From Fluviicola sp. (GTDB taxonomy: Bacteria > Bacteroidota > Bacteroidia > Flavobacteriales_D > Crocinitomicaceae): a stretch of DNA of 64,000 nucleotides. Shown here piece after piece: positions 53,302-62,552 of the stretch (the first letter of the stretch is position 1; each line of letters starts with the position of its first letter). The stretch covers positions 98,524 to 162,523 of the forward strand of contig NVXV01000005.1 of the NCBI GenBank assembly GCA_002734085.1, written 5' to 3'. A model generated the notes under the pieces. The model saw only the letters and a list, made by a program, of their open reading frames with translations, was not told the DNA's origin and made no database searches. A program made the position numbers and the translations under genes.

Positions 53302-53313
53302 GGAAACGTTTCC
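53302..53313. promoter_or_regulatory. Perfect palindrome GGAAACGTTTCC, possible operator
   Basis: A 12-bp perfect palindrome with central CG and AAACGTTT core, the shape of LacI/GalR-family operators. It lies 148 bp from the TonB receptor start and 283 bp from the TolC-like start. No LacI-family gene is in the window. Confidence 0.45.
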
Positions 53314-53595: not shown

Positions 53596-55644
53596 TTGAA
53601 TACTTTTTTAAAATACGCGCTACTTTTAGCTTTAATGCTTTTAGCTAATTCCCATTTCGCTCAAGGGGACAGTACCAAGCTATATATAAATAATCTATAT
53701 TCAAACTGGAAGTCTACTTATAATAAGTATGATTTTGAACATGGTGGAGGTAATCAAAAAGACATTTCTTCTTTGTTTTCCAAACAATTTGCTGACTCAA
53801 ATAGGGTTCAAAACTTTTTAGTTGAATTAAAGCAATTAGAGTCTGATTATTACAAAGGAAATATTGGGCTTGGATTCAATGCAGGGTTTCTGAATAACCC
53901 AACTGGTGGAGAGCAAGATTTTGACAACATTATTTACAGAAGTCGATTTATAACGGATGTTGGTTGGGATATTTTACGAAGTGGTTATCTTCATAATAGG
54001 CTAAAGTCGCAAATTGCAGAAAACGAAAGTAGAATAGCTTCTATTGAAGATAAGGAGTTAAAGAAAAATGCCAATTTTGCTATTTTATGGAATTATATAA
54101 TATATCAATTTAACCTTCAAAAAATTCAGGTTCTTAATGATCGGATGAAATTAGCCCAAGATAAAATTGATGCCATTAAAAAACTATACTTTTTAAACAA
54201 GGTAGACGAATCTGAATTATTAAAACACTTAGAGAGTATTGCCGAGATCCGGAGTATGTTCAATATATATAAAGAATTTAATGAGCAGCTAAAAATAGAG
54301 TATCAGTTTAATGCTAACGACACTCTTGACCTTCCTTTAATTGATATTAAGTATAATAAAATTAAAGAACGATTAGACGGTCAACAACAAGATAGTATAG
54401 CTTATTTGATGCAAGAGAATATCGATCTAAAAAATAAATTCATAAAGGATATTTCGCTTCGAACATCAGTGCGGTACAGTTACTATGACCTTGTCACAGA
54501 TAATCCAGCCAGTAGAGATTTTTTCTCGTTAGGCATATCTTTAGGAATTCCGATTAATTTCAATCGCAAGACGAAGGCAGAATGGATAAACCTGCAAAAG
54601 GAAAGTGTAGAATATATTCCTGAAAATGATCGTATAACAATTCAGAAGTCAATTTTAAATAACTATTATGAGTTTCGATATAAATTAAAGCAATATACTT
54701 CAATGCATTATAAAAGATTGTTGTATCAAGAGCTTCTTCGGAAAGAAAATGCCAGATATTCAATAGACTACCTCTCGTTCAACCCTGTTTCATCGCTTCG
54801 CATTCTCGATGATCTCATGAAAATTGATATTGAAATGCTTGATTTAAAACAACAGATGTACTTAAAACTAATTTCGATTCATACTGAAATTCCTTACAAC
54901 GAAATAAATGAGCTATACTCCATCCATACGTTAGATGATGAATTTGAAAATGTTTATTCATCAAAGCGCTCCATTTATATTTGGGATAACCTATTTGATA
55001 ATTACGATCTTCCGTTTTTACTGAGCTATATGGAAAAGGAAGACTTTGTTGGTGCTATTGTAAGTTACAATCTCAAACAGAATAATACAAAAATTAAAAA
55101 CAACTTTATTGATACCCTTTCAAGTAAAGGAGTAAAAATAGAAATCATGACTGGTAAAAACGCTTTACTTGGATCGAATCCTATTCCTTATTATGACTCA
55201 ATCACACAAGCTATCGATTTCGATAAAATAAGTGCTCTTCATTTAGATGTTGAACCTCATACGTTTGACGATTGGAGCGAAAATAAATCAATGTATTTAG
55301 ATCAGTATGTGGAATTATTAGATAGCACATTAATATTCTGTGAAAATAAAAATATAAACCTATCAGTTTCAATACCTTTGCATTTCCCAAAGGAGTATAT
55401 CGAGAAAATATATCAAAGGTGTAACTTAGTTTATTTTATGGCTTATGAAAATATCAAAACAGATTACATTGTTAGAAAAGTCAAAGATTACGACCCTTCT
55501 AAAACAGCTATTGCATTGAGAACTGAGGATTTTAAAAACTTATTAGAGATAGAAAATAAAATTATTGATATACAAACACAATATACTCCGAGTCAATTTA
55601 TAATACATGATTTAAGAAGAGTCATAGAATTCGAAAAGCAATAG
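53596..55644 (+). CDS. TolC-like outer-membrane protein fused to TIM-barrel-like glycosidase domain
   Basis: 682 aa, start TTG at 53596 (gives an intact signal peptide MNTFLKYALLLALMLLAN). Residues about 25-435 look like a divergent outer-membrane efflux (TolC) protein: long helices at 130-230, FFSLGISLGIPINFNRK strand region at 309-325, and the second helical hairpin ending LDLKQQMYLKLISIHTE. Residues 455-680 form an alpha/beta domain with SIYIWDNL, VGAIVSY, ISALHLDVEPHTFDDW (Asp551, Glu553 possible acids) and NLVYFMAYEN, read as a TIM barrel resembling carbohydrate-active enzymes. First gene of the EPS-like operon. The barrel assignment is tentative. Confidence 0.72.
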   Translation: MNTFLKYALLLALMLLANSHFAQGDSTKLYINNLYSNWKSTYNKYDFEHGGGNQKDISSLFSKQFADSNRVQNFLVELKQLESDYYKGNIGLGFNAGFLNNPTGGEQDFDNIIYRSRFITDVGWDILRSGYLHNRLKSQIAENESRIASIEDKELKKNANFAILWNYIIYQFNLQKIQVLNDRMKLAQDKIDAIKKLYFLNKVDESELLKHLESIAEIRSMFNIYKEFNEQLKIEYQFNANDTLDLPLIDIKYNKIKERLDGQQQDSIAYLMQENIDLKNKFIKDISLRTSVRYSYYDLVTDNPASRDFFSLGISLGIPINFNRKTKAEWINLQKESVEYIPENDRITIQKSILNNYYEFRYKLKQYTSMHYKRLLYQELLRKENARYSIDYLSFNPVSSLRILDDLMKIDIEMLDLKQQMYLKLISIHTEIPYNEINELYSIHTLDDEFENVYSSKRSIYIWDNLFDNYDLPFLLSYMEKEDFVGAIVSYNLKQNNTKIKNNFIDTLSSKGVKIEIMTGKNALLGSNPIPYYDSITQAIDFDKISALHLDVEPHTFDDWSENKSMYLDQYVELLDSTLIFCENKNINLSVSIPLHFPKEYIEKIYQRCNLVYFMAYENIKTDYIVRKVKDYDPSKTAIALRTEDFKNLLEIENKIIDIQTQYTPSQFIIHDLRRVIEFEKQ

Positions 55645-55645
55645 A

Positions 55646-56704
55646 TTGAAGAACTTATACTTTAATAGAAAAACATCGGTCCTCAGAAACAAGGATGAAA
55701 AGCCACGAAAGAAGCGCAACACGAATTGGGATAAGATTATCTATTTCGCTGTATTGTTAACGATTGTATATTTCGTTTTCAGTTTTTTCTTTGTTCGTCT
55801 AGTATATGTAGATGCGCCAGGACATGTTTTATTTAAGAGTCTATCTATAAGAGTACCTGAAGACATAACAATTCACAATATTTACAAAGAGGAAGGAGAA
55901 CTTATCTGCGAAGGAGACACGCTTTTTTCTTATATATCGACAAAAGACGAATTAATGGCAATGTCTAGTATAAATGCTGATATTGCCAATAAAGGTAATC
56001 AATGGATGGAGCGAGAAATTTATTCATTGAAAAAAGATATTGGCCTAAACAATATTGATGTTTTTGAAAAGCAACAATTAATTGAATGGAACGAAGCAAG
56101 AATAAAAGAAATTGAAGATGAAGTTGTTTTAGGTATTACTCCTAAGTACAAACTTGAGAATTATCAAAAGGACATTGAAAAGTTGACTTTAGAGATTGAA
56201 AACATTGAGGCTGCAAATGCAACCTATCGAAACTTAATCACGACGTTGCAACAAGCTAATAATACAAATCCTAGTTCCATTGATATGTCTCAAAATGGAT
56301 TTGGTGGATTAAGTTATCTTCAGAAATATTACATCGCACCCATCGAAGGAACAGCTACAAGAATATATAAGAACAACTTTGAAGTTGCGCTAAAATCAGA
56401 AAACATATTGAATATCCACAAACGCGAGGACATTTATATCAAAGCATTTTTTGATCAAGAGGATTTTCATCATGTGAATGAAGGTGATCAGGTTAGGGTT
56501 ATTTTTCCAGATGGTGAAGAAAGTATAGGTCATATCAAAAGGTTCTATTTCGCTTCTTATCGACTACCAGAAGAGTTTCAAAAGAAATATGAATCTACCA
56601 CTAGGGCTATAGCTGCAGATATTTTCCCTATTGAACGTGAGGATCAAATTAAATGGAAAGCTTTTTATAAAATGAAAGTGAATGTTAGAATTAGTAAGTA
56701 TTAA
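55646..56704 (+). CDS. HlyD-like periplasmic adaptor (membrane fusion protein)
   Basis: 352 aa, start TTG at 55646, one base after the previous stop. Basic cytoplasmic N-terminus, one membrane helix (about 31-53), the lipoyl-like half HVLFKSLSIRVPEDITIHNIY with EGELICEGDTLFSY, an alpha-helical hairpin/coiled coil (about 100-215), then the second lipoyl half and beta-barrel (YYIAPIEGTATRIY, GDQVRVIFPDGEESIGHIKR). These are the parts of an HlyD-type adaptor bridging inner membrane and a TolC-like channel. The partner is very likely the preceding gene. Confidence 0.85.
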   Translation: MKNLYFNRKTSVLRNKDEKPRKKRNTNWDKIIYFAVLLTIVYFVFSFFFVRLVYVDAPGHVLFKSLSIRVPEDITIHNIYKEEGELICEGDTLFSYISTKDELMAMSSINADIANKGNQWMEREIYSLKKDIGLNNIDVFEKQQLIEWNEARIKEIEDEVVLGITPKYKLENYQKDIEKLTLEIENIEAANATYRNLITTLQQANNTNPSSIDMSQNGFGGLSYLQKYYIAPIEGTATRIYKNNFEVALKSENILNIHKREDIYIKAFFDQEDFHHVNEGDQVRVIFPDGEESIGHIKRFYFASYRLPEEFQKKYESTTRAIAADIFPIEREDQIKWKAFYKMKVNVRISKY

Positions 56705-56715
56705 ATAGAATTAAC

Positions 56716-58131
56716 ATGGGTGATGTAGTTGAGTCAGACATATTGAGGCACGGTGCTTTTGAATACATCAGAATTCACGATTATTCAAATTATTCGCTTG
56801 AACTATTCATGGCCTATGATTCAGTGGTTATTGAAAGCAACAATAGAGATTTTGTCGAGAAATTAGTTCGCTCAATACGCACCCATAACCACACTGATGT
56901 GTATTTAAAACCAATTTTTTTATTAAAGTCAAGTAAAGTTGAGGATCCATTAATTAATAACTTAATCGATGGTGTTATATTTTCAATCGATCAGTTAGAA
57001 TTAATATCAGATTACGTCAAACAAATATTACTCAGGATTAAAGATTTTGTATTCGTAAAATCAATATCTCTTGAAGCAGAAATTATCTCGAGAACAATTA
57101 ACTTAATGGTTTCTAGAGAGAAGACTGAACTTTTCGCCTATTTATATTTGAATTCAGGATTGGGATATATTTATCCAGAAGCCTCCATTCAATTTTCACC
57201 TAGAGATGAGCACAATCTCCTTTCAATATTAGATACTGCTGAGCAAGAAGGATTGTTCACTTCAGATTTCAATGATAGAATTTATTTGTGTACGAATTGC
57301 GAAACAGGAATACTCAGTTACCGAGAGGTTTGCCCAAAATGTAATTCAGCAAATTCTAAAGCAGAAGATTTAGTTCATCATTTTTCATGTGCCTATGTGG
57401 GTCCAGTTTCCGACTTTAAAAATGCGATAGACGATGAGTTAAACTGTCCGAAATGTAATAAATACTTAAATCACATTGGAGTAGATTACGACAAACCTTC
57501 GTTACTTCATACATGCAATAAATGTGGTCATAAATATCAGGATTATCACGTAAAAGCAAAATGTATCACTTGTCACCACGACAATGATGTAGAAAATTTA
57601 TTGCCCAGAACCATTAAGAATTTTTATCTCACCAAGAAAGGAAGAAACGTTGCTTATCATGGCTTTATAAGCACTTCAAAAGATTTCAATGAAATTCCGG
57701 GAACAGTAAGATTCGACGTGTTTAAAACAATGTTAGAATATGAGATTGAACGTCTAAAACAAAATGATGCAACTAGTAATATAGCGTATTTAACTATCTC
57801 AAATGCTGGAGAACTGTACTCTAGAATTGGAATTGAAAGACAGAAAATTTTAATCTCTGAAATGATTAGAATTTTAAGAAAAAACTTGAGATCGTCGGAC
57901 TTTATAGCTTTCTATAGTGCTTCAACACTTATTCTATCGTTAAACGATATACCTACAAAAATCGCAAATAATATATTGAACGATGTTGTGAAAATAACAA
58001 CCATGTTACTTAAAAAGAATTTCAAAAATGTTGAGATTCATATTGAAACGTTTGCAACACCACTAAATATAGAATTTTCTCATGAAATACAGTTACAGCA
58101 GCTAATAAAACGATTTGAAACGGAAAGTTAG
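56716..58131 (+). CDS. Zinc-ribbon protein with degenerate GGDEF-like domain
   Basis: 471 aa, soluble, ATG start. Residues about 25-115 have receiver-like alternation (YDSVVIESNN, VYLKPIFLLKSS, IDGVIFSID). Residues 190-290 hold CxxC pairs at 192/195, 206/209, 244/247, 267/270 and 283/286 plus C225, enough for two or more zinc sites, of the type called TackOD1 or zinc ribbon. Residues 325-450 resemble a GGDEF domain: SSDFIAFYSASTLILSL aligns with the RxxDxxaRyGGDEF segment, but GGDEF is replaced by SASTL. It cannot be an active diguanylate cyclase; a regulatory or binding role is likelier. Placed between adaptor and synthase. Confidence 0.72.
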   Translation: MGDVVESDILRHGAFEYIRIHDYSNYSLELFMAYDSVVIESNNRDFVEKLVRSIRTHNHTDVYLKPIFLLKSSKVEDPLINNLIDGVIFSIDQLELISDYVKQILLRIKDFVFVKSISLEAEIISRTINLMVSREKTELFAYLYLNSGLGYIYPEASIQFSPRDEHNLLSILDTAEQEGLFTSDFNDRIYLCTNCETGILSYREVCPKCNSANSKAEDLVHHFSCAYVGPVSDFKNAIDDELNCPKCNKYLNHIGVDYDKPSLLHTCNKCGHKYQDYHVKAKCITCHHDNDVENLLPRTIKNFYLTKKGRNVAYHGFISTSKDFNEIPGTVRFDVFKTMLEYEIERLKQNDATSNIAYLTISNAGELYSRIGIERQKILISEMIRILRKNLRSSDFIAFYSASTLILSLNDIPTKIANNILNDVVKITTMLLKKNFKNVEIHIETFATPLNIEFSHEIQLQQLIKRFETES

Positions 58132-58136
58132 ACCAA

Positions 58137-59456
58137 ATGGACTTTATCGCTCAAGAAGTAGATTATTTTTTTCACTATATAAGTGAAGTTGGAACTAGTA
58201 AGTTAGTTCGAATTTTCTGGTTCTTTGTGATTTTCGAATTTTCAAGGTTGTTTGTAATTGATTTCTTAGCACTCATCTTTATTTTTATCAAAAGAAAACT
58301 TACTAAAAAGAAAAGAAAAGAAGCTCGTAGACAATTATTCTTATATAACCCACTGATTTCAATAATCGTTCCTGGAAAAAACGAAGGAAAACACATTTTT
58401 AAGTTGGTTTCCTCCTTAAAGGAGCAAACCTATAAAAACTACGAATTGATTATTGTTGATGACGGCTCCGATGATGACACCGAACAAATTTGTAAAAGCT
58501 TAAAGAAAAACAACCTGATTGATGTATTTATAAGAAATGAAGTTCGCGGGGGAAAAGCTTCTGGTGCCAATACAGCATTAAGAGTAGCTAAAGGAGATTT
58601 CGTTATCCACTTAGATGCAGACTCCTCTCTTGATAGAGATGCTATTGAACAAATTATTACTCCTTTTTATGAAAACCCAGACGTTGGAGCCGTTGGAGGG
58701 AATGTAATGGTTAGGAACTATAAAGAAACACTCGCTACAACACTTCAGTCATATGAATATAATGATGCGATAAGTATAGGTAGAATGGTCGCAAGTTATC
58801 TTGGTGTTTATAGAATAATATCTGGGGCTTTTGGCGCTTTCAGAAGAGATGCCTTAGAGCAAGTTCAAGGGTGGGATATTGGACCAGGGTTAGATGGTGA
58901 CATAACCGTTAAAATGCGTAAAGTTGGCTACAAAGTAGTTTTTGAAGATAGGGCGGTTTGCCAAACAAATGTTCCAAGCTCTTTTAAGAATCTAACTAAG
59001 CAACGATTACGTTGGGATAAATCACTTATAAGATTTAGATTGAGAAAACACAAAGATGTTTTTATCCCAGATGAAAACTTCAGTATTTTAAATTTCTTAT
59101 CATTTCTTGAGAATATATTCTTTACTATAATTCTAAATATTAAATGGTATATCTACATTATTGACGTGGTTATAAATTTCCCTGGAATTTTAGGTATGAT
59201 CCTAGTAATGAACTTTTTCCTATACTCCTGTTCTAATGCATTTAAATTACTTTTATTTAATTTCTTTCGTGAGAGAAAGAACAGCCCAATCTATATTTAC
59301 TTCCCCTTCATTCCATTAATGGTACTATATCACGGTTACTATTTACGCATTGTGCGAACAGTAGCATATATTAAAGAACTATTCTTTAAATCAAGTTATA
59401 AAGATGAATGGAATCCTGAAAAGACTTCAATCAGAGCAAAACAAATTGGAATTTAA
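58137..59456 (+). CDS. Membrane processive GT2 glycosyltransferase
   Basis: 439 aa. N-terminal membrane helix pair (about 22-52), cytoplasmic GT-A domain (72-300) and C-terminal helices (about 308-345, 348-372, 384-402). Motifs: IIVPGKNEGKHIFKLVSSLK, VDDGSDD (107-113), DAD at 160-162, acceptor/base region GLDGDITVKM (251-260) and the processivity motif QRLRW at 289-293. It is of the cellulose/PNAG/chitin synthase type; the usual TED motif is replaced by DGD. No PilZ domain. The polymer sugar cannot be read from the sequence. Confidence 0.88.
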   Translation: MDFIAQEVDYFFHYISEVGTSKLVRIFWFFVIFEFSRLFVIDFLALIFIFIKRKLTKKKRKEARRQLFLYNPLISIIVPGKNEGKHIFKLVSSLKEQTYKNYELIIVDDGSDDDTEQICKSLKKNNLIDVFIRNEVRGGKASGANTALRVAKGDFVIHLDADSSLDRDAIEQIITPFYENPDVGAVGGNVMVRNYKETLATTLQSYEYNDAISIGRMVASYLGVYRIISGAFGAFRRDALEQVQGWDIGPGLDGDITVKMRKVGYKVVFEDRAVCQTNVPSSFKNLTKQRLRWDKSLIRFRLRKHKDVFIPDENFSILNFLSFLENIFFTIILNIKWYIYIIDVVINFPGILGMILVMNFFLYSCSNAFKLLLFNFFRERKNSPIYIYFPFIPLMVLYHGYYLRIVRTVAYIKELFFKSSYKDEWNPEKTSIRAKQIGI

Positions 59457-59483
59457 AAAAACTGTGTATCTTTCTACTATAAA

Positions 59484-62400
59484 TTGAATCGAATCAACAA
59501 ACATATTACTCAGGTTTTCGCAATTTTATTTTGCTTAAACAATGCTACTTTCTCTCAAAACATATTAATAAATGAAGTAGTTTCTAGTAACCTATATTCA
59601 TATTTTGATCAGTATGGAGATAATAGTGATTGGATTGAACTATACAATACAACTAACAACTCCGTCTATCTAGGAAATTTCTACCTGTCAGACGACGAGA
59701 CGAATTATATTAAATGGAGTTTGCCTGACACCTATATACCCGCTAATAGCTCTGTTATTCTCTACGCATCGGGGAAAGGAAGTGAATTTGATTCACACCA
59801 TACAAATTTCAAATTATCTTCAACAGGTGAGCATTTAATTTTATCCAATCAAAATGGATTACCGATTGACCATATTTTAATTCCAAAATTAAAGACCGAT
59901 ATAAGCTACGGAAGAATCACGGATGGTGCTCCTGATTGGGGTTATTTTGATGTTTCCACTCCTGGATCAACAAATGGTTCGTCATCTTCCTTTACTTGCT
60001 TGTTAGAAATTCCAACTGTTGATAAAAACTCTGGAAGTTATTCTGGCAGTGTAGATTTATTCGTTTCTCATGCAGATCCAGGTGTTGAAATAAGATACAA
60101 TCTACGTGGAAATAACCCTACACTTTCTGATCCAATACTTCAAAACAGTATCTTATTGCAAAACACTTCAAGTGTCAATAACTATAGTATAATTCCAACA
60201 AATCCAGCTTTCAACTATCCGATGGGAGCCTACTCTGAAACTCGAGCAAACAACAGGGGCTGGGTACCGCCCTATTCAACTCTAAATACTATAAACGTTA
60301 TTAATATACAGGCTTTTAAAAATGGTTGTATTGCAAGTGAAGTTGTTTCGAGAACCTTTTTGATTGACGAAAATCACGACCTTGATGTTTTATCTATACA
60401 AACTGATAGTCTCGGTTTCTTCTCTGATGAAGAAGGTATTTATGTTTGGGGAAATGATCCTGAAGGGAATTACAACCGAAGAGGAATTCAGAGCGAACGT
60501 AAAAGTGCTATAGATTTTTTCAATGAAGAAGGAGATTTAATTTTTTCTCATAAAGCTGGAATCAGAATTGGCGGTAGCGGTTCAAGACACTCTACTCAAA
60601 AAAATATCAATGTATTCTTCAGAGGAACTTACGATGATTCATTTCCTGAAGACAGTTTATTTGAAGATAGTGAACTGAATCGCTGGAAAAGACTAACGTT
60701 TCGCTCTGGAGGTCACCGCCCCGATTGCCTACCAAAAGATGAATTTGCATCTGAATTAGTGAGCAGCTTAGCTGTCGGTCATTCAAAGTACAGATATGCT
60801 AGTACCTACCTCAATGGAGAGTACTGGGGAATTCATGCAGTAAAGGAGAGGTTAAATAGACATTATTTAGAAGCAAAATACAATTTACCTCGTGACAGTA
60901 TTGCTTTTTTAGGAAATGAAGGAGATTTATTGGATGGAACCCCTCAAGATTCTATTGACTACAAAAATTTGGTTGATTTTGCTAAAGCTAATGACTTGAA
61001 CAATCAAGCCAACTTTGATACTGTAACCAGTCAAATAGATATTAATAATTTTACAGATTACTTTATTTCTGAAATTTTTCTGGGTAATGCAGACTGGCCA
61101 AACAGTAATATTAAGTTTTGGCGCAAAAGAACACAATCAACCCCTCACGTAAATGCTGGTCACGATGGGAAATGGAGATGGTTACTGTTTGATTTAGACG
61201 GAAGCTTTGGTGGGTCATGCAATGATGTTTATGTTACTTTCAATACACTAAACTGGGCGTTAAGAGATGACGCTAGCTTTGAAAAATACACTGCCTTATT
61301 CAGAAATTTAATCGATAATGATCATTATAAAACTGATTTTATAAATCGTACATGTGATTTAGTTAATTCGAGTTTTAAAGCTTCAGTTACTCGCCCTAAG
61401 CTACAAAGTGTAAAAAACAATATTGACCTTGATATCAATAATCACATTGACAGGTGGAGATATCCTTCTACATCAAACACGTTAGCTGACAGATATAACG
61501 AAACACCGAATACAAACCAATGGGAGTACTTAACGGCTCAAATGGATACTTTTTTAATAAGGCGTCCACATTATGTTCGCAAACATATGTTTGACGAATG
61601 GGGTCTTTCAGATTCTATTCGACTCGAAGTTGATGTAAACGACCAAAACATGGGAAGCGTTAAAGTAAATACTATCGTCATTAATGAAAATTTAGAGGGC
61701 GTTCCTTCCAATACATATCCTTGGACAGGGGTATATTTTTCAGATTTGGAAATTCCGCTGAAAGCGATTCCCAAAGAAGGTTATAGATTTGTAGAATGGA
61801 TCGAAACAGGCAATACTGACCAAACAATTTTTATTACTTTAAACAGTGATAGTTTGTTTACTGCGAGATTTGAAATTGATCCAGACTATGAACCTTTACT
61901 TCCGATTGTAATAAATGAGGTTCAATCAAATAATGGCGATACTTATCAAGATGAATATCTAGCATTTGATGATTGGGTAGAATTATATAACCCGAATGAT
62001 ACAGCAGTAAACATCAATGGTTACTATTTGACAGATGAGGCATCTAAGCCAACAAAATATGCGATTAATAATGACTTGATTATACCTGCTAATGGACATT
62101 TAATTATCTGGTGCGATAATGAAAGTGAGCAGGGTTTAAACCACACCAACTTTGGTTTAAATAAATTTGGAGACTTTATTGGCTTAGTTTCTTCAAGTGA
62201 GGACTTTGTAGATAGTTTAAGTTTTGAGGCCATTTATAGAGATTATTCGTACGGAAGAAAAAGCGATGGAGACCTGGAATGGACTACTTTTCAAACTCCT
62301 ACGCCAAACGCCCCTAATGAAATAATTGAATCTGAAACTATTCCTACAGAGTTAGTCGTTTACCCGAATCCTAATAAAAAGGGGATCTTATATTTCTCTA

Positions 62401-62552
62401 AAGAAATTACTGGAGCTTTCTACAATAGTCACGGTGCTATTGTATTACGATTTGAATCTACACAACAAGTTGAAACACTTGGGGTAAGTCAAGGAATTTA
62501 TTACTTACAAACGAATGAAGGTATTACTCGAAAAGTTCTACTCATACATTAG
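59484..62552 (+). CDS. Secreted CotH-kinase / lamin-tail protein with T9SS sorting domain
   Basis: 1022 aa, start TTG at 59484, giving signal peptide 1-24. Domain order: lamin-tail domain (26-165, ILINEVVSSN, DWIELYN), chitobiase-C-like domain (175-290, EIRYNLRGNNPT), CotH-kinase domain (about 300-660, with KERLNRHYLE, GNADWPNSNIKFW and WRWLLFDLDGSFGG), an InlB-like beta domain (710-800, YRFVEWIETGN), second lamin-tail domain (808-945, IVINEVQSNNG) and a T9SS C-terminal domain (950-1022, LVVYPNPNKKG). CotH proteins in spores phosphorylate coat proteins; this one would act outside the cell. Last gene of the EPS-like operon (27 bp gap). Confidence 0.87.
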   Translation: MNRINKHITQVFAILFCLNNATFSQNILINEVVSSNLYSYFDQYGDNSDWIELYNTTNNSVYLGNFYLSDDETNYIKWSLPDTYIPANSSVILYASGKGSEFDSHHTNFKLSSTGEHLILSNQNGLPIDHILIPKLKTDISYGRITDGAPDWGYFDVSTPGSTNGSSSSFTCLLEIPTVDKNSGSYSGSVDLFVSHADPGVEIRYNLRGNNPTLSDPILQNSILLQNTSSVNNYSIIPTNPAFNYPMGAYSETRANNRGWVPPYSTLNTINVINIQAFKNGCIASEVVSRTFLIDENHDLDVLSIQTDSLGFFSDEEGIYVWGNDPEGNYNRRGIQSERKSAIDFFNEEGDLIFSHKAGIRIGGSGSRHSTQKNINVFFRGTYDDSFPEDSLFEDSELNRWKRLTFRSGGHRPDCLPKDEFASELVSSLAVGHSKYRYASTYLNGEYWGIHAVKERLNRHYLEAKYNLPRDSIAFLGNEGDLLDGTPQDSIDYKNLVDFAKANDLNNQANFDTVTSQIDINNFTDYFISEIFLGNADWPNSNIKFWRKRTQSTPHVNAGHDGKWRWLLFDLDGSFGGSCNDVYVTFNTLNWALRDDASFEKYTALFRNLIDNDHYKTDFINRTCDLVNSSFKASVTRPKLQSVKNNIDLDINNHIDRWRYPSTSNTLADRYNETPNTNQWEYLTAQMDTFLIRRPHYVRKHMFDEWGLSDSIRLEVDVNDQNMGSVKVNTIVINENLEGVPSNTYPWTGVYFSDLEIPLKAIPKEGYRFVEWIETGNTDQTIFITLNSDSLFTARFEIDPDYEPLLPIVINEVQSNNGDTYQDEYLAFDDWVELYNPNDTAVNINGYYLTDEASKPTKYAINNDLIIPANGHLIIWCDNESEQGLNHTNFGLNKFGDFIGLVSSSEDFVDSLSFEAIYRDYSYGRKSDGDLEWTTFQTPTPNAPNEIIESETIPTELVVYPNPNKKGILYFSKEITGAFYNSHGAIVLRFESTQQVETLGVSQGIYYLQTNEGITRKVLLIH

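Follow-up and report, generated by a model that had tools for sequence, protein, structure and literature searches.

Synthase-dependent export of exopolysaccharides (EPS) was surveyed in 2020 for five polymers, with four parts per system (PMC7112194). For cyanobacterial cellulose, a family 2 glycosyltransferase (GT2), a HlyD-like adaptor, TolC and a glucanase have been proposed to form one tunnel, XcsAB-TolC; the model is unproven, its components do not lie together in T. vulcanus and a PilZ domain is present in XcsA (PMC12430437). Tripartite pumps and type 1 secretion systems combine HlyD and TolC with an ABC, RND or MFS transporter (PMC8277102). We analysed a 64,000-nucleotide window from Fluviicola sp. 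(Bacteroidota) that contains a run of five plus-strand genes, here numbered 1 to 5. Genes 1 to 4, hereafter the core, encode a TolC-like protein fused to a TIM barrel, a HlyD-like adaptor, a protein combining a TackOD1 zinc ribbon with a degenerate GGDEF-like domain, and a membrane GT2. The best reading of the core is that of a new variant of synthase-dependent EPS export, and it appears fairly probable that the GT2 takes the place of the pump in a HlyD/TolC conduit and that the TackOD1 protein is its regulator.

The XcsAB-TolC proposal is the nearest to the core in mechanism. The core differs from it in forming one operon, in having its hydrolase-like domain fused to TolC and in being PilZ-free. 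Compared with the surveyed synthase-dependent systems, it probably supplies a synthase and a modifying domain, with HlyD/TolC instead of a tetratricopeptide repeat (TPR) porin, and its hosts show no sign of cyclic diguanosine monophosphate (c-di-GMP) enzymes. No Pfam TPR match was obtained in the five genes of the window, the rest of the genome not having been searched for TPR proteins. Systems producing poly-N-acetylglucosamine (PNAG; PgaABCD/IcaADBC) share with the core a membrane GT2 synthase and a periplasmic barrel of the PgaB C-domain fold. Unlike them, the core is accompanied by no Pga porin, PgaD or PgaB deacetylase among the window genes, its hydrolase-like domain is borne by TolC and its GT2 falls outside the PgaC/IcaA branch. 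PelD (Pel) and BcsE (cellulose), described as partners with a degenerate GGDEF domain that keeps an RxxD-type site (PMC8461298), resemble gene 3 in this respect; in gene 3, by contrast, this domain follows TackOD1 zinc ribbons, and the Bacteroidota hosts are, with one exception detailed below, without other GGDEF proteins. The Pel synthase PelF is a GT4, whereas that of the core is a GT2. The rhizobial mixed-linkage beta-glucan locus bgsBA resembles the core in placing a HlyD-domain protein beside a GT2 synthase (PMC9495663). However, BgsA is described as a cellulose-synthase homologue whose C-terminus binds c-di-GMP (PMC9495663, PMC5567048), and neither TackOD1 nor a fused TolC occurs in the available part of the locus description (PMC9495663); gene 4 scored 41 bits against TIGR03030 CelA, for a curated score of 699, and was compared with BgsA by description, not by alignment. 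Finally, archaeal TackOD1, with five CxxC and one HxxC, has been linked with response regulators and with loci of type IV pili, and its function called obscure (PMC5847659). The same domain is tied in gene 3 to a GT2/HlyD unit instead, and thereby gains a physical and testable bacterial context. The first-pass annotation had supposed that EPS export functions are supplied here by different parts, and indeed the core nowhere matched Bcs, Pga, Pel or alginate systems part for part. No description of the core unit was found in the open-access literature searched, which is weak evidence of novelty.

Conservation and spread of the core genes

The distribution of the core was analysed in a family sample of 150 genomes, host included. 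Gene 3 (TackOD1) was matched in 30 of them, again with the host, and a GT2 of the gene 4 type was found in 31 by reverse profile search at E<=1e-100. Both occurred together in 29 of the 32 genomes with either. The exceptions were a GT2 without TackOD1 in G072 (partial, with an internal stop) and G101 (partial), and a TackOD1 without GT2 in G097, on a contig of 3.6 kb. The G072 sequence (G072:C53:20210-20956), which belongs to the gene 4 subfamily in a genome without gene 3 match, is likely a decaying copy. The order TolC, HlyD, TackOD1, GT2 was the same in all 27 family loci examined, which represent 27 of the 29 relatives with a gene 3 match (G089 and G097, with contigs of a few kb, being outside the count); this includes two loci where the contig ends within the GT2 (L051, L065), one each with HlyD (L044) or TolC (L063) in split form, and one in which 1,025 bp separate TackOD1 from GT2 (L042). 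In the 24 loci where all four genes were unbroken and measurable, 69 of 72 gaps lay within -14 to +22 bp. The gap listing took GT2 matches at E<=1e-100 only, so that the truncated L051 GT2, visible in its region, is absent there; rows left out of the alignments as truncated or broken were L060 and L063 (A2), L051 (A3) and L044 (A4). No ABC or MFS gene and no open reading frame (ORF) of at least 80 aa was located between the four core genes of the 27 loci, an unlinked pump being outside this count. The conserved order of the core genes is far beyond chance. The lack of co-occurrence in other genomes, which the first-pass annotation had named as the sign that would speak against a system, was not encountered for genes 1 to 4. 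A contig search with one protein query retrieved one locus, L066, from a Flavobacteriales metagenome-assembled genome, apparently on the same contig as L039.

In a phylum sample of 395 genomes, 16 matched the gene 3 profile: the host, 11 genomes with strong matches (12 loci) and four with weak matches to the GGDEF region (G316, G376, G420, G431), which were dropped. GT2 adjoined TackOD1 at all 12 loci of the 11 further genomes. In L104-L106, HlyD and a barrel-less TolC lay upstream at a distance of 3.7-4.1 kb; the two large intervening ORFs encode, in L104, a DUF4114 protein and a member of the UDP-glucose dehydrogenase family. A gene of the latter family accompanied some loci, and galE some. 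Two oppositely oriented TackOD1-GT2 pairs, separated by ~11 kb, occurred in one genome (L101); a UDP-glucose dehydrogenase family gene preceded the first of them, and a SPOR-domain HlyD protein the second. In a class sample, PF18551 was above cut-off in 20 of 295 genomes (including the host, G011 and G212, already present in other samples) and in none of 14 control genomes; GT2 was adjacent in 20 of these 20 and HlyD in 18, the remaining two loci ending on the HlyD side.

Plasmids extended this distribution further. Gene 3 matched 21 plasmid records and, among the 20 listed, 15 were bacterial and five haloarchaeal. A GT2 was next door by coordinates in all 15 listed bacterial plasmids, and HlyD belonged to the same gene run in the seven regions examined (profile E 5.2e-5 to 5.5e-21), while the one haloarchaeal region examined had no annotated glycosyltransferase. 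Across phyla, a 21-protein search gave E values of 5e-33 to 2e-49 for TackOD1, 7.5e-57 to 1e-91 for GT2 and 2.7e-6 to 2.9e-22 for HlyD. An eighth locus, found via GT2 on a Sinorhizobium medicae plasmid, combined the GT2 with a weak HlyD match (0.0049). Beside them, an ORF of ~110 aa (L131:7116-7445), missed by the gene 3 tblastn plasmid search, contained the TackOD1 zinc core alone (E 1.8e-13) and is perhaps a minimal form of the regulator. The unit, which the first-pass annotation had placed in Bacteroidota, is thus not restricted to this phylum: TackOD1, GT2 and HlyD also occur together in Pseudomonadota, the spread outside Bacteroidota being documented on plasmids only. A 29-kb mobilizable plasmid of Aeromonas caviae (L094) bore a TackOD1-GT2-TolC-HlyD set beside partition genes, from which it follows that the unit can travel. 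Two further plasmids, from Sulfitobacter (L133) and Prevotella (L134), encoded glycosyltransferases of ~1,130 aa in which the GT2 match was limited to the C-terminal third; these are other fused polysaccharide synthases.

Domains and motifs of the core proteins

Domains of the five genes were identified by Pfam and NCBIfam profile scans. Gene 4 matched PF00535 (Glycos_transf_2) with 109.8 bits and contained D109, D160-A-D162, GLDGD (251-255) and QRxRW (289-293), all of them invariant in 27 of 27 rows (A3); the variable residue of QRxRW was L in 22 rows, Y in two, M in two and Q in one. DAD, DGD and QRxRW, together with membrane segments, form a set typical of processive synthases. The best NCBIfam model was TIGR03937 (PgaC_IcaA), with 182 bits, far under its cut-off of 422. 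In a tree, 24 TackOD1-linked GT2s of both phyla formed one side of a 97/97 branch, with a single label change; PgaC, IcaA, a Lactobacillaceae GT2, two fused synthases and three others lay outside. Six own-genome rows (L003-L008), of which five covered less than half of the columns, were excluded from this tree, and the Sinorhizobium GT2 was counted with the group. A larger tree of 38 rows, partial rows included, displayed nine long branches and a nearest split of 86/75; the TackOD1 label required two changes there because the group also took in the Sinorhizobium GT2 and a short own-genome fragment. Both trees contained few reference families. Since gene 4 was compared with such a small set and stood apart from PgaC/IcaA, its presumed processivity rests on its motifs. 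The final tree and the Sinorhizobium checks strengthened the link between GT2 and TackOD1.

The N-terminal part of gene 1 matched OEP with 30.2 bits (cut-off 22) in two stretches, the best covering aa 80-217; Pfam was the sole test of TolC likeness. No Pfam match was obtained in the C-terminal part, for which an AlphaFold model built from two sequences (predicted local distance difference test, pLDDT, 85.3) displayed eight strands alternating with helices. VIA-align ranked the PgaB C-domain 4p7o_B best (Z 18.8, 3.0 A, 219 residues), followed by Cwp19 (Z 18.3); the top three rows, PgaB and twice Cwp19, were tied, with BpsB and GH18 proteins next. Because Foldseek ranked tryptophan synthase and other TIM barrels in among the GH18 chitinases, the hydrolase reading is based on the VIA-align ranking and on motifs. 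H549-x-D551-x-E553-P-H was located at the end of strand 4 and MxYEN at the end of strand 6, and both HxDxEPH and FM[AC]YEN were invariant in 26 of 26 family rows (A2). In GH18 enzymes, an N-acetyl group is handled by a DxE that follows strand 4 and an MxYD that follows strand 6. We take the motifs of gene 1 to correspond to these, in a comparison of motifs and not a residue-level superposition; a TIM barrel with an acidic pair after strand 4 is also what the GH18/GH153 clan displays, in our reading of the motif. The likeness of fold suggests a hydrolase-like domain that may have the role of a periplasmic polymer hydrolase. A GH97 candidate was not relied on, as it came from one weak PDB sequence match (E 0.0057, or 0.11 with the domain alone). 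On the Methylocystis plasmid, a related domain was encoded by a gene of its own, flanked by HlyD and TolC; by eye it appeared to begin with a signal peptide, and it matched at E 2.2e-4 in a set of 407 ORFs (in a shuffle control on one scale, 4.6e-7 versus 0.016 for the best of 1,000 shuffles). In Aeromonas, a weakly similar domain was fused to TolC. Gene 2 matched HlyD_3 with 27.9 bits (cut-off 22.2), and its family profile matched EmrA chains (4tko_B, E 2.1e-5; 8zar_A, 1e-4).

The TackOD1 domain of gene 3 matched PF18551 with 159 bits (E 1.3e-46; gathering score 32 bits). PF18551 was matched in 28 of 28 members, and the pattern of 11 invariant Cys (five CxxC and one HxxC) was complete in all 28. 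The GGDEF match remained sub-threshold in Pfam (15.4 versus 23.8); it was present at E<=0.1 in 18 of the 28 members, the best reaching 9.4e-7. The GGDEF/GGEEF signature of active diguanylate cyclases was replaced or absent in every one of the 28 rows, and an RxxD five residues upstream of the lost signature was kept in 23. RxxD was also in place in the Plesiomonas, Aeromonas and Photobacterium copies, and was not seen at the equivalent place in those of Rhodobacteraceae, Methylocystis, Roseibium and Phyllobacterium. No membrane segment was seen in gene 3. Its N-terminal domain is separable, since gene 3 was represented in L098-L103 by two ORFs, the first of 106-119 aa and the second of ~480 aa. 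By eye this domain suggested a receiver domain, a reading that was not supported when profiles were compared (hhalign probability 0.1%, E 0.49). In Roseibium (L093), a TackOD1 protein with an apparently true receiver domain, again by eye, was encoded among Hpt, CHASE/ATP-binding and response-regulator genes, a setting hinting at two-component control of the unit.

The distribution of GGDEF proteins among the hosts was also analysed. The genome of the Fluviicola host (99.89% complete) contained no GGDEF, EAL or PilZ match at E<=1e-3. In the family, GGDEF matches occurred in 11 of 150 genomes, eight being gene 3 itself and three belonging to genomes without the locus (G028, G064, G086). Among 28 further locus-bearing Bacteroidota genomes, four had GGDEF matches, which were gene 3 only in three of them; the fourth, G617, had two besides gene 3. 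GGDEF domains other than that of gene 3 were therefore present in one of 58 locus-bearing Bacteroidota genomes (0/30 in the family, 1/28 among the further ones), some of these genomes being incomplete.

These data bear out what the first-pass annotation had read in the individual core proteins: the TolC-like protein and the HlyD-like adaptor were above Pfam cut-offs, the glycosidase-like fusion was recovered by structure prediction, the zinc ribbon exceeded its threshold next to a sub-threshold GGDEF, and the DAD motif of the GT2 and the QRxRW pattern, of which its QRLRW is the most frequent form, were invariant.

Proposed mechanism and competing explanations

The frame in which we infer polymerisation, polymer identity, conduit assembly, hydrolysis and regulation is that of a tripartite pump. 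The membrane GT2 would polymerise a UDP-sugar, most likely an N-acetylhexosamine, and extrude the chain via its own membrane part. HlyD would join it to TolC in the outer membrane; with this bridge, the GT2 would occupy the place of the ABC, MFS or RND pump. The TIM barrel on the C-terminus of TolC would be positioned at the periplasmic mouth of the tunnel, where it would trim or free the chain. The hydrolase domain of PgaB acts likewise on PNAG. Gene 3 would bind the synthase and switch it on in the manner proposed for PelD or BcsE, a switch that in Bacteroidota would not answer to c-di-GMP. As c-di-GMP enzymes are missing, gene 3 may resemble the PelD/BcsE partners in fold and answer another signal in these cells. 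Accessory neighbours, such as CotH, a T9SS-tailed (type IX secretion system) deacetylase-like protein, a DUF4114 protein and a UDP-sugar dehydrogenase, may tailor or anchor the product.

Several observations weigh against this mechanism. OEP was detected at E<=0.1 in just 12 of 26 gene 1 family members. The barrel was absent from L104-L106 and, in L107, was shortened and without its motif, while the C-terminal domain of Aeromonas matched weakly (0.024; 2.6e-4 on a one-sequence scale; absent at 0.01 in a third search). TolC itself was elusive on plasmids: none was annotated within ~9 kb in the Plesiomonas, Rhodobacteraceae, Roseibium and Phyllobacterium regions, whose gene tables are incomplete, none was seen among the Photobacterium plasmid ORFs, and the TolC profile matched no plasmid ORF, those of Aeromonas and Methylocystis being known by annotation only. 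For gene 3, structure prediction from two rows gave a pLDDT of 33 and was not used, and RxxD is preserved in most family members although their hosts show no c-di-GMP enzymes.

The preservation of RxxD is also an argument for gene 3 being a genuine c-di-GMP receptor that places the system under ordinary c-di-GMP control. The site accompanies a degenerate GGDEF domain in the family and in the Plesiomonas, Aeromonas and Photobacterium copies, and PelD and BcsE are described as working so (PMC8461298). However, the host genome had no GGDEF, EAL or PilZ match, other cyclic-dinucleotide synthases not having been searched for, the near absence of other GGDEF domains extended to the remaining locus-bearing Bacteroidota, and several plasmid copies were without a visible RxxD. 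The sequence evidence leans against c-di-GMP binding by gene 3, and the explanation as a whole is decidedly unlikely, even if ordinary c-di-GMP control of the unit may apply in Gammaproteobacteria. A divergent PNAG system, in which the GT2 would be related to PgaC and synthesise poly-beta-1,6-GlcNAc, with the barrel fused to TolC in the place of PgaB, is clearly improbable too. PgaC_IcaA was the best NCBIfam model and the PgaB C-domain was among the top structural matches, but the score was under half of the family cut-off, PgaC/IcaA lay outside the branch of TackOD1-linked GT2s in both trees (97/97 and 86/75), and PgaD, a PgaA-type TPR porin and a PgaB deacetylase domain were missing from the five genes; the deacetylase-like gene of L048/L052 was sub-threshold and T9SS-tailed.

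Somewhat easier to entertain, though still unlikely, is a GT2 that makes a glycolipid or decorates surface glycans, HlyD and TolC exporting that product or something small, with no long polymer. The GT2 and HlyD/TolC families are functionally broad, processivity was read from motifs, and GT4, thioesterase and GT9 genes were found upstream in L041, with ORFs of like size in several other loci. These upstream genes were, however, different or missing elsewhere, the motif and membrane segment set is that of processive synthases, the core was kept without a pump gene, and a fused hydrolase-like domain fits a polymer. A system that modifies or exports CotH/lamin-tail surface proteins of the matrix is very improbable. 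CotH followed the GT2 by 27 bp here and was adjacent to the core in five relatives, but it was not beside the core in 22 of 27, where some contigs end soon after (L051, L063 and L065 being examples), and CotH genes were widespread in the family irrespective of the locus.

The pump-like EPS system proposed above therefore retains the export operon of the first-pass annotation, with its conserved GT2/HlyD/TolC unit, a barrel of PgaB/GH18 type and a degenerate-GGDEF partner, and abandons its c-di-GMP control, its functional role for CotH and its restriction to Bacteroidota. If true, it would bring together in one operon the parts of a synthase-HlyD-TolC tunnel, an architecture proposed but unproven for cyanobacterial cellulose (PMC12430437). 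It also raises the question of how a synthase with a degenerate-GGDEF partner is switched on in genomes showing no c-di-GMP enzymes. With a little less than even confidence, we tentatively suggest a further class of EPS export in Bacteroidota and Pseudomonadota, in which a processive GT2 would be the inner-membrane engine of the HlyD-TolC tunnel, a polymer hydrolase could be borne by TolC and a TackOD1 protein with a fossil or re-purposed GGDEF would be the regulator, acting in Bacteroidota free of c-di-GMP.

Coordinates, accessory neighbours and flanking features

The coordinates of the five genes and their spacers of 1, 11, 5 and 27 bp were as first annotated according to an ORF check, with TTG listed as start for genes 1, 2 and 5.

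Table. Positions of genes and domains of the five-gene run within the window
Feature	Coordinates	Strand	Basis or remark
Gene 1, whole ORF	53596..55644	+	
Gene 1 N-terminal ~451 aa, signal peptide (by eye) and TolC/OEP-like outer-membrane factor	53596..54948	+	Pfam OEP
Gene 1 C-terminal domain, aa 452-682, TIM barrel like PgaB C-domain/GH18	54949..55644	+	AlphaFold, VIA-align
Gene 2, HlyD/EmrA-like periplasmic adaptor, N-terminal membrane anchor (by eye)	55646..56704	+	Pfam HlyD_3
Gene 3, whole ORF	56716..58131	+	
Gene 3 N-terminal domain, ~120 aa	56716..57075	+	separate 106-119 aa ORF in L098-L103
Gene 3 TackOD1 zinc-ribbon domain, aa 123-304	57082..57627	+	PF18551
Gene 3 degenerate GGDEF-like domain, aa 335-437	57718..58026	+	sub-threshold Pfam GGDEF
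Gene 4, membrane GT2 synthase, flanking predicted membrane segments (by eye)	58137..59456	+	PF00535
Gene 5, CotH kinase-like and lamin-tail domains, T9SS-like tail	59484..62552	+	Pfam

The run was flanked upstream by a divergent TonB-dependent receptor gene and a DUF4249 gene, and downstream by two convergent genes reading by eye as HisIE and HisF. Between the divergent TonB-receptor gene and gene 1, a perfect 12-bp palindrome, GGAAACGTTTCC, was located at 53302-53313 (one match in the window versus 0.09 expected). It resembles a LacI-type operator, and was not found 5' of gene 1 in L066/L039 or in the other loci examined.

Gene 5 matched CotH with 120.1 bits and the lamin-tail domain (LTD) with 94.4 bits in two stretches, the T9SS tail being sub-threshold. 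CotH followed the core in L039, L053, L055, L059 and L060, five of the 27 relatives, yet was present somewhere in 122 of the 150 family genomes, with up to at least 13 matches each. Its candidacy as a core part, and with it the functional role first assigned to it, was rejected on these counts, and CotH is an optional neighbour outside the core. In L048 and L052, of the same genus, the gene after the core encoded instead a protein with a T9SS tail, whose match to polysaccharide deacetylase was sub-threshold.

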